From the NCBI GenBank assembly GCA_946406095.1, contig CAMJJO010000003.1:1-37678 (forward strand): a stretch of DNA of 37,678 nucleotides, written 5' to 3'. Positions 3,645-36,895 of this stretch are shown here, one piece after another (the stretch's first letter is position 1; each line of letters opens with the position of its first letter). The DNA is from an uncultured Bacteroidales bacterium (GTDB lineage Bacteria > Bacteroidota > Bacteroidia > Bacteroidales > UBA932). The translations under genes were made by a program, and so were the position numbers. The notes below the pieces were generated by a model that did not search any database, was not told the origin of the DNA, and was given only the letters and a program-made list of their open reading frames with translations.

Positions 3645-3716
3645 GCCCCTGTAGTTTAATGGATAGAATTTCGGATTCCGGTTCCGACGATAGGCGTTCG
3701 ATTCGCCTCGGGGGTA
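3645..3716 (+). tRNA. tRNA-Arg (anticodon CCG)
   Basis: Cloverleaf read by eye: acceptor GCCCCTG/CGGGGGT, anticodon stem-loop TCGGA-TTCCGGT-TCCGA, T-arm GGCG-TTCGATT-CGCC; CCA not encoded. Confidence 0.92.
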
Positions 3717-3717
3717 C

Positions 3718-3751
3718 GAAAAAAGGACAGGTAGAAGCCTGTCCTTTTTTC
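3718..3751 (+). terminator. Bidirectional intrinsic terminator (tRNA-Arg on +, M16 protease gene on -)
   Basis: gaaaaaaggacagg-tagaag-cctgtccttttttc, a perfect 14-bp stem with T-tracts in both directions. Confidence 0.9.
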
Positions 3752-3770
3752 GTTTTATTGGAGTTAAAGA

Positions 3771-25955: not shown

Positions 25956-27349
25956 GCACGGAGGATCTTTACAAGCTATATTGCGAATGCGGGTATCAGG
26001 TGAGTACCGATAGCCGCACTATTCCTGCCGGGGCGATCTTTTTTGCTCTCCGAGGGGAGAATTTCGATGGTAATCAGTATGCGCTGAAGGCTCTGGAAGC
26101 AGGTGCTGCTTACGCCGTTGTCAATGATGATGCGGACGTCGCTCCTGCGGACGGGCAATGCGGAGACGGGCTCCCCTTGCGGGACGCGGCTCTGCCCTTT
26201 GCCCGTCGCGGAAAGCCTGAGGGGGTCCGCATCATCCCTGTTCCGGACCCATTCAAAGCCTTACAGAATCTGGCAATCCATCATCGCAAGGCGTTGGGAA
26301 TACCCGTGATAGGGCTGACTGGAACCAATGGGAAGACCACTACCAAGGAGTTGATCGCGGCGGCGCTGGGAGCCAAGTTCAAGGTCGCGGCTACCAAAGG
26401 CAACCTGAATAACGACATAGGCGTGCCGCTGACTTTGCTTTCCATCAAACCGGGCACCGAGATGGCCGTGGTGGAAATGGGCGCAAATCATCCCGACGAT
26501 ATCGCGAAACTGGTGAAGGTAAGCCAGCCGGATTATGGATACATCACCAATGTGGGAAAGGCGCATCTGCTGGGTTTCGGCTCCTTCGAAGGCGTTCTGG
26601 CTGCAAAGACGGAGCTTTACAAATGGCTCGGCAGCCACAGGGGCTCGCTGATATTCGTGAATACGGATCATCCGGAACTGACTGCGGAGGCTCGCAGGCA
26701 GGCCTGCCATCAGTGGGAATTCTGCCGCGAGTCTATGGGTGTGGAGGTGCTGCCGGCAACGCCGGAGAATCCTTTCCTGGCGCTGAAAGCCGGCAAAGAT
26801 GAAATCCATACCCGCCTTGTGGGTGCATACAATACCGATAACGTGATGGCGGCTCTTGCCATTGCCGAGTACTTCGGAGTGAAGCGCAAGGATGCCATCC
26901 GCGCCATAGAAGCCTATACACCGGCAAACAGCCGTTCGCAGCTCCAGAAAACGGAAAGGAATACCATCATTGTCGATGCATACAACGCCAATCCCACTTC
27001 GATGGGGCTGGCGATCGACAATCTGGCAGCGATGAAGACGGATGGAAAGCTGGCTCTGCTTGGGGACATGCGCGAGTTGGGCGAGGCTTCTGTGGAGGAG
27101 CATAAAAATATAGTCCGGAAGCTGATTGCATCCGGACTGAAGTCTTACCTTGTAGGCGAAGAATTCGGGAAAGCCCTGGCCGAACTGGGCATCGTCCCAG
27201 GGGAGGATGCCCATATATTGGGATGCTTCCCTTCTTCCAACGCTCTGGCGGAGTTTATTTCAGGCCATAAGATTAAGTTCTCCAATGCCACGGTGCTCGT
27301 CAAAGGCTCCCGTGGCATACAGATGGAGAAGGCTCTTCCTGAATTATAG
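25952..27349 (+). CDS. murF: UDP-N-acetylmuramoyl-tripeptide--D-alanyl-D-alanine ligase
   Basis: [78 protein letters not shown]. Start taken at the ATGA overlap with dut (25952). Confidence 0.97.
26126..26236. repeat. 111-bp in-frame palindromic element inside murF
   Basis: Perfect terminal inverted repeats GATGATGCGGAC (26126-26137) / GTCCGCATCATC (26225-26236); internal GCGGACGGGCAA (26147-26158) / TTGCCCGTCGC (26199-26209) with a 1-nt bulge. Encodes [37 protein letters not shown]. Confidence 0.8.
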
Positions 27350-35713: not shown

Positions 35714-36895
35714 ATGGAAAAAGACGCTCCGAAAGTCGTGAAGATCCACGACGTAAAAATAGACCAGGATTACATGCAATGGCTTGGAGAAATCAAAGCC
35801 CGGTACCGCAATGCCCAGATCAAGGCCGCCGTCAAGGTGAACGCTGAACAGTTGCTGTTCAACTGGCAACTGGGACGCGACCTTGTGATGCGCAAGGCAG
35901 AGGAAAAATGGGGATCCGGCATTGTCGAACAGGTTAGTCTGGACCTCCAAGCCGCATTCCCGGAATCCAAGGGCTTCAGCACTACGAACTTGTGGCGGAT
36001 GAAGCAATGGTATATGTTCTATGCTCAGGAGTCTCAAAAACTCCCACAACTTGTGGGAGAATTACAAAGTGCTGATTTACAGGGCCGTAAGAAACTCCCA
36101 CAACTTGCGGGAGAAATTCACGACCGCATAATAAGCCAGCAGGATGGCGCCGCATTCCCCGAATTATTTGCTTACGTCCCCTGGGGGCATCATGCCGAGA
36201 TAATCGCCAAGTGCAAAACACTCGAAGAAGCCCTGTTCTACGTCGTTAATTCCGCCTCGGAAGGCTGGAGTCGCAATACCCTGATGAACTGCATCAAGGC
36301 AGACTATTTCCATACGTCCGGCGGAGCAATCACCAATTTCAGTGATAAACTCCCTTCTCCTCAAAGCGAACTCGCACAGGCTATCACCAAAGACACTTAT
36401 GACTTCGGCTTTGTTTCACTGAATAAAGGTTATGAGGAAGAGGAGTTGGAGACTGAACTTGAAAGGCAACTCACACGCTTCCTTCTGGAACTCGGTACCG
36501 GTTTTGCGTACTTGGGCAGGCAAAAGCAACTTGTCGTGGCTGGCAAGACTCGTAAACTGGATATGCTCTTTTTCCACATTCCACTCAACTGCTATGTGGT
36601 AGTGGAACTCAAGGCCGTTCCGTTCCAGCCTGAATTCGCCGGGAAACTCAACTTCTACGTGAACGCCGTAGATGACTTGATCAAAACGCCTGCACAAAAT
36701 CCCACCATCGGACTGCTTATTTGCAGCAACAAGGATGAAACGGAAGTCCAGTATGCATTCAAGGGAGTCCAGACACCAATGGGAGTTGCTTCGTATAATA
36801 ATGTGCAGGTAAAACAGATACAGGATCAGTTACCTTCCATCGAAGAACTAAAGAAACGCATTAGATTGCTTGAAGAAGAGCTGAACAAGAAATAA
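35714..36895 (+). CDS. DUF1016/YhcG-family predicted PD-(D/E)XK nuclease
   Basis: INAQ-type DUF1016 N-domain (NAEQLLFNWQLGRDLV), YVPWGHHAEIIAKCKTLEEALFYVVNSASEGWSRNTLMNCIKADYF, KLDMLFFHIPLNCYVVVELKAVPFQPEFAGKLNFYVNAVDD nuclease core. Start reassigned from 35669. Confidence 0.9.
   Translation: MEKDAPKVVKIHDVKIDQDYMQWLGEIKARYRNAQIKAAVKVNAEQLLFNWQLGRDLVMRKAEEKWGSGIVEQVSLDLQAAFPESKGFSTTNLWRMKQWYMFYAQESQKLPQLVGELQSADLQGRKKLPQLAGEIHDRIISQQDGAAFPELFAYVPWGHHAEIIAKCKTLEEALFYVVNSASEGWSRNTLMNCIKADYFHTSGGAITNFSDKLPSPQSELAQAITKDTYDFGFVSLNKGYEEEELETELERQLTRFLLELGTGFAYLGRQKQLVVAGKTRKLDMLFFHIPLNCYVVVELKAVPFQPEFAGKLNFYVNAVDDLIKTPAQNPTIGLLICSNKDETEVQYAFKGVQTPMGVASYNNVQVKQIQDQLPSIEELKKRIRLLEEELNKK
36041..36113. 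repeat. Two palindromic micro-repeats, 54-nt period, inside the DUF1016 gene
   Basis: CTCCCACAACTTGTGGGAG (36041-36059) and CTCCCACAACTTGCGGGAG (36095-36113), both encoding KLPQL(V/A)GE. Confidence 0.85.

Follow-up and report, generated by a model that had tools for sequence, protein, structure and literature searches.

What do two nearly perfect palindromes do in frame inside a gene for a putative nuclease? The question is raised by a 37,678-nucleotide stretch of DNA from an uncultured Bacteroidales bacterium (hereafter, the window), in which a gene of the DUF1016/YhcG family harbors two such sequences 54 nt apart. The original prediction, made from the letters alone, took the linker of this protein to be a recurrent insertion hotspot for short palindromes. 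We find that the palindromes are two copies of a palindromic unit seen across the DUF1016/YhcG family, and do not represent a local insertion hotspot.

Palindromic units in the window gene and in the family

The identification of the gene as a DUF1016 nuclease was borne out, since both Pfam domains exceeded the gathering score: PF17761 matched residues 26-200 (E 2e-34; 119 bits, cut-off 32.8) and PF06250 (YhcG_C) matched residues 223-373 (E 2e-52; 177.6 bits, cut-off 32.5). The protein also matched the PADLOC HMM for PDC-S02, a candidate phage-defence system (E 1e-131), and a fold search matched the nuclease domain to EndoMS/NucS-type nucleases (E 9e-5). The features discussed below are as follows.

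35714..36892, + strand: DUF1016/YhcG gene, 393 aa (P0001), with PF17761 and PF06250; PADLOC candidate PDC-S02
35921..36025, + strand: predicted helix-turn-helix, residues 70-104 (AlphaFold2 helices 70-81 and 90-104; covariation with the unit at residues 91, 94 and 95)
35981-36025, + strand: predicted recognition helix, residues 90-104 (AlphaFold2)
35984..35998, + strand: codons of the putative specificity residues T91, W94 and R95, whose residue-base pairings match the window stem CTCCCACAA
36037..36063, no strand: palindromic unit 1, AAAACTCCCACAACTTGTGGGAGAATT (core 36041-36059, centre 36050), a canonical family unit
36091..36117, no strand: palindromic unit 2, GAAACTCCCACAACTTGCGGGAGAAAT (core 36095-36113, centre 36104), with one mismatched core pair
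36380..36832, + strand: PD-(D/E)XK nuclease domain (PF06250), with D283 (36560-36562), E298 (36605-36607) and K300 (36611-36613)

Both palindromes were confirmed as near-perfect, in frame and far beyond chance. The core of unit 1, CTCCCACAACTTGTGGGAG, has perfect 9-bp arms around a 1-nt centre, and is the only perfect palindrome in the 37.7-kb window with arms of at least 9 and a loop of at most 5. The core of unit 2, CTCCCACAACTTGCGGGAG, contains a single A-C mismatch, and the units extend to 27 bp, beyond the 19-nt cores first described. With up to 3 mismatches allowed, the pattern gave 4 strand-matches in the window against 0.05 expected, and the rest of the 1.74-Mb draft genome (about 74% complete) contained no further match. 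A murF element, apparently an inverted repeat inside that gene, had been counted together with the linker as two in-frame palindromic insertions. This pairing did not hold: the murF repeat (27103-27147) is imperfect, being 75% complementary with a 5-nt gap, and does not fit the 27-bp unit, so that the murF and DUF1016 palindromes are different phenomena. The window also contains a terminator-like perfect 16-nt stem with a 6-nt loop (ACGAAAAAAGGACAGG/CCTGTCCTTTTTTCGT) at 3716-3753, between open reading frames.

The consensus unit is 27 bp long, roughly AATT-N9-N-N9'-AATT, and its centre is usually CA-N-TG. The centre coincides with codon position one in 180 of 184 units of a first set and in 242 of 250 of an enlarged one, and 53 genes have their last unit centred exactly 18 nt upstream of a conserved W codon. 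In the non-redundant sets, the window gene was represented by its near-identical relative L006. Linker palindromes of differing sequence were present in nearly every ortholog or paralog scanned, including genes without an insertion in the linker, and the similar repeats that the original prediction had placed in other Bacteroidales do exist. The unit is found in Bacteroidota, in yhcG of E. coli K-12 and in members from several other phyla, as well as in plasmid copies from Robbsia, Leptolyngbya, Frigoriglobus, Deinococcus, Pseudomonas, Cupriavidus, Collinsella, Curtobacterium and Enterobacter. No perfect unit was found in the genes from Thiothrix, Sulfurimonas, Calothrix, Rhodococcus and the Wolbachia phage WO, some of which have imperfect ones, and 34 of 284 genes had no recognisable unit with mismatches allowed.

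Genes carry 1 to 4 units, with a single unit in 94 of the 134 unit-bearing genes of the first set, and copies are irregularly spaced, at any distance between 24 and 105 nt that is divisible by 3. In yhcG of E. coli K-12 there are three in-frame units (gene nt 303-329, 342-370 and 378-410), and a fourth lies about 15 nt past the stop codon. Copy number, which had been proposed as a comparison between strains, is variable, since E. coli alleles carry three (L173, L197), two (L193, L196) or one (L194). The site past the stop codon also varies among these strains. A CRISPR-like repeat array was considered and rejected on the basis of the irregular spacing, the predominance of single units, and the genes that flank the window gene, namely obg and a PEP-synthase-like gene.

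An insertion hotspot as the sole cause of the palindromes is ruled out because genes without an insertion carry the unit too. The fixed position of the units in such genes and their spread across phyla contradict it, as do their virtual absence elsewhere in the genomes tested and the co-evolution with the recognition helix described below.

Selection on the palindrome and specificity for the gene

A perfect palindrome with arms of at least 8 was present in the linker of 72% of 284 non-redundant genes, compared to 2.0% of synonymous-codon shuffles and 1.9% of other segments of the same genes. For arms of at least 13, the corresponding values were 24%, 0.01% and 0.02%. These synonymous-codon nulls rule out chance palindromes arising from codon usage. 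In an alignment of 40 units, 156 cells had changed on both arms, with a covariation score of 0.78 against 0.19 after shuffling; both sides changed in all 13 pairs, and sliding the alignment by one column abolished the signal. The units in this alignment were picked as palindromic, and hence the independent test is the synonymous-shuffle comparison in the 284 genes. The peptide itself varies, from LPQLVG to LPQLVA, LHQLGG, LYQLGR and LAQVGR, with both DNA arms shifting together, so that the comparison suggested earlier between conservation of the DNA palindrome and of the peptide came out in favor of the palindrome. Taken together, these results show that selection acts on the palindrome independently of the peptide, and that the peptide follows the palindrome.

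The sequence of the stem is specific to each gene. Linker copies within one gene match at a median of 15 positions out of 19, a value that falls to 8 for copies from different genes, and copies of a gene's own type outside the linker show a median identity of 16/19 to their own linker, against 8.5 to other genes. Such copies are located in 5' leaders (about 26 nt upstream of the start codon in L352 and about 9 nt in L073), in the N-domain (L284, L307, L320, L339 and L132) and in 3' flanks (E. coli and Rhodococcus L180). Paralogs within one genome carry different stems, and near-identical sites in the same genome were seen in 2 of 60 cases, a count raised by the misassignment of L080 to another genome. 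In 12 whole genomes, a degenerate pattern made from one stem matched only DUF1016 genes, a fragment of such a gene and their immediate neighbourhood at the sites read (all but G010:C215), and a control pattern gave no match in the same genomes. Blastn searches with the K-12 palindrome over E. coli revealed no evident second locus in most genomes, and patterns of the E. coli YhcG peptides found no match in viral contigs.

The predicted recognition helix and its covariation with the unit

A comparison of how well the global similarity of each domain follows that of the stem was uninformative, with both domains performing about equally, and a residue-level analysis was therefore needed. By mutual information with the protein columns, the outer stem positions were linked above all to residues 91, 94 and 95. 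All three lie outside the stretch encoded by the unit; covarying columns 147-155 were dropped because the unit itself encodes those residues. An AlphaFold2 model places residues 91, 94 and 95 at the start of helix 90-104, following helix 70-81 and a turn, and residues 70-104 of DUF1016_N are predicted to form a helix-turn-helix. No solved structure matched DUF1016_N at a significant E-value, and the assignment of the helix-turn-helix therefore rests on the model and the covariation.

Arg 91 is accompanied by G at stem position 7 in 114 of 119 genes, and Lys 91 by C7 in 21 of 24. On stratification by overall identity, no column scored higher than residue 91 for position 7 (log-odds 3.46, robust z 18.8). 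Glu 94 occurs with C8 in 22/22 genes and an aromatic residue 94 with T8, while Arg 95 is mostly found with C5, and Tyr, Asn, Gln, Ser or His 95 with A5. The pairings in the window gene (T91-C7, W94-T8/C9 and R95-C5) are all consistent with its stem. Natural swaps are seen in L011, with R91 and G7 in place of T91 and C7 of the window gene, and in L013, with Y95 and A5 in place of R95 and C5. Within E. coli, strain 2020N21-110 has R91/W94 and GTGC in its first unit, and K91/R94 occur with C7 in the first unit of K-12 and O157. There are exceptions, in that E. coli K-12, with K91, also has sites with G7 where the code expects C, and further E. coli sites deviate.

Using a tree built without the region under test, we counted changes of residue and base on the same branch. 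Changes involving R91 and G7 were consistent in 36 cases and opposite in 1 (null mean 6.6, maximum 15), and the best of the remaining columns reached 8. R/K95 with C/T5 gave 18 consistent and 0 opposite changes (null maximum 9), and E/D94 with C8 gave 10 and 0 (null maximum 3). Residue 91, trained on Bacteroidota, predicted base 7 outside the phylum in 43 of 51 genes, against a baseline of 23/51, and ranked first of 302 columns. Residues 94 and 95 transferred poorly (29/49 and 39/52, near the majority baselines). The table of residues agreed with non-linker copies in 17/17 cases, which are not independent because these copies had been pre-chosen by their likeness to the own linker. Residue 187 and similar columns correlated with stem positions 2-3 in a manner that looks like deep subfamily structure, and this correlation was not used as evidence.

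These results show that the letters of the unit co-evolve with the helix in the textbook amino acid-base fashion (Arg-G, Glu-C, Asn/Gln-A). Judged by this covariation, the unit would qualify as an autogenous operator, a cis site matched to the recognition helix encoded by the same gene. Since the palindrome letters co-evolve with a helix that would read DNA, each DUF1016 protein very probably recognises the palindromes in its own gene, and AATTCGCCAGACAGTGTCTGGCGAATT is the predicted candidate for the duplex target of E. coli K-12 YhcG.

Autoregulation and alternative readings

We propose that the DUF1016 protein, probably as a dimer, binds the 27-bp palindrome or palindromes embedded in the reading frame of its own gene, as well as the additional sites that some genes have in the 5' leader, the N-domain or the 3' flank, with each half-site being read by residues 91, 94 and 95 of the DUF1016_N helix-turn-helix. 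Physical binding, dimerisation and function are inferred here from sequence. The DUF1016 gene moves between loci with its sites retained, and adjoins obg only in some relatives, implying that the reader of the sites must travel along with it. A gene that moves in this manner cannot rely on its own promoter, and an intragenic autoregulatory site would therefore suit it. The bound site would then be an autoregulatory element travelling with a mobile nuclease gene, and self-binding would limit expression of the nuclease in any promoter or operon context, much as I-TevI represses itself via a look-alike site. On balance we lean towards autoregulation as the main use of self-recognition, although operators are not usually placed several hundred bp into a gene, and a 5' leader copy is present in only a few genes. 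At plasmid loci, DUF1016 genes overlap type I RM or other operon genes. The overlaps in L174, L177, L178, L182 and L189, with type I RM, TraX or integrase-family genes, are of about 4 bases and look like translational coupling in operons.

The PD-(D/E)XK catalytic residues were conserved in all unit-bearing genes for which these columns had letters. The nuclease domain is intact, and may either stay inactive on its own sites or act under particular conditions. With the active site intact throughout, self-cleavage or homing is a rival reading, which we consider less probable: DUF1016 could be a self-targeting or homing-type endonuclease for which the unit is the cleavage site, and cutting of its own or an allelic gene would drive gene conversion, movement or tandem duplication of units. 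The site is long, rare and palindromic, the gene moves between loci, and copies are variable in number and spaced by whole codons, all of which would suit such an enzyme. In addition, in L041, L042, L043 and L046 the DUF1016 gene adjoins the two parts of a split type ISP RM gene, methyltransferase and specificity (Type_ISP_C), lying clearly between them in L043, and the specificity part carries a unit of the own type in L042 and L043. However, an enzyme whose site lies within the own gene would keep cutting it in the absence of protection or gating, and no protector shows consistent linkage; insertion of a homing nuclease gene normally destroys its own site; and no empty target with a unit was seen, the unit being absent from uninterrupted type ISP genes. 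About 30 type ISP loci other than these four likewise carry none.

An RNA hairpin in the mRNA, acting as a translational or attenuation element or as a type III antitoxin-like RNA that binds the nuclease, is improbable. Own-type copies in the vicinity of the gene are mostly in sequence that is likely transcribed, and RNA folding gave a z of -5.9, as would be expected of a hairpin. However, mismatches at stem positions 2-8 comprised 32 A-C and 19 G-T, which does not favor RNA wobble, and few G-U intermediates were seen in the 40-unit alignment. Position 1 co-varies (OR 3.5, p 6e-5; 1.1 for the same codon junction elsewhere), although it would have to stay unpaired in a hairpin whose loop is 1 nt. 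A search of Rfam returned nothing of note, and the correspondences between helix and bases are typical of reading in the DNA major groove. The pairing statistics favor a duplex-DNA dyad over an RNA hairpin.

The selfish palindromic micro-elements implied by the original prediction, of the Rickettsia palindromic element or REP type and inserted in frame at a hotspot, are very improbable as an explanation. They would account for in-frame palindromes, a variable copy number and the insertion-like repeats of the linker, but dispersed copies were absent from the draft genome and the 12 genomes and not evident by blastn in most E. coli genomes, position is fixed in genes that lack an insertion, and the stem differs from gene to gene, even between paralogs of one genome, in step with the protein helix. 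Rickettsia palindromic elements are palindromic DNA translated in frame within protein genes (PMC4316617). They are dispersed elements of 100-150 nt, unlike the 27-bp DUF1016 unit, which has a gene-specific sequence and a fixed place in one family. In REP elements and RAYT, a protein and its cognate palindrome travel together; REP sites, though, are extragenic, dispersed and recognised as hairpins, whereas the DUF1016 sites are intragenic, essentially confined to the own gene and predicted to be read as duplex DNA. Least credible of all is a functionless chance palindrome kept symmetric by template-switch correction of quasi-palindromes, which could in general homogenise copies within a gene but leaves unexplained the single codon phase and position across phyla and the matched copies in 5' leaders and 3' flanks, and is contradicted by the co-change with helix residues that the unit does not encode.

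The closest precedent for the proposed self-repression would be I-TevI of phage T4, a DNA endonuclease that represses its own gene via a site like its target (PMC2988022). I-TevI is a GIY-YIG enzyme whose operator overlaps an upstream promoter, while DUF1016 is a PD-(D/E)XK protein with a palindrome in the coding sequence that co-evolves with it across the family. ParB/Spo0J also binds a short palindrome, parS, as a helix-turn-helix dimer, as is predicted for DUF1016, and one parS of B. subtilis lies within spo0J. However, parS is nearly invariant and serves chromosome segregation, whereas the DUF1016 site diverges in each gene and is accompanied by no ParA or CTPase; a profile match of A2 to Spo0J was weak and non-significant (E 0.44). 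The intragenic operators lac O2 and gal OI likewise lie within coding sequence, but their repressors are encoded elsewhere, whereas the DUF1016 gene encodes its own reader. The Rpn proteins (RpnA-E) are PD-(D/E)XK nucleases regulated from within the gene by an internal start that makes an inhibitor protein, a parallel to the regulation proposed here; we know of no palindromic self-target in that family.

The family spans E. coli K-12 to archaea, and has so far been known as a predicted nuclease with a synthetic-lethal link to replication (PMC2672614). The C-domains of YhcG are predicted nucleases related to YraN/Holliday junction resolvases (PMC1189080), and a yhcG deletion is synthetic-lethal when combined with alleles of dnaB, dnaN and parE (PMC2672614). 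We found no published account of the palindromes in a full-text literature that covers few subscription journals. For DUF1016/YhcG, our analysis points to a probable DNA target and a predicted recognition helix, and gives part of an amino acid-base code. One stretch of DNA is here selected across phyla both as protein code and as the predicted binding site of that protein. It also predicts hundreds of mutually orthogonal nuclease-site pairs. Read conservatively, the finding is one of autogenous protein-DNA recognition, a principle already known. More tentatively, DUF1016 nucleases may be self-addressed, with a coding sequence that serves as both linker and own target, and with the enzyme of each orthogonal pair marking or cutting its own gene. 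If so, this would be a mode of nuclease control not described before, and could provide self-limited expression, an allelic gene drive, or a switch that frees the nuclease when the gene is unoccupied or replicating.

Finally, yhcG is disrupted in E. coli B (L190, C2566) and in many other genomes, where the match to K-12 stops at nt 406. This end falls within the third palindrome (378-410) and suggests a rearrangement breakpoint there.
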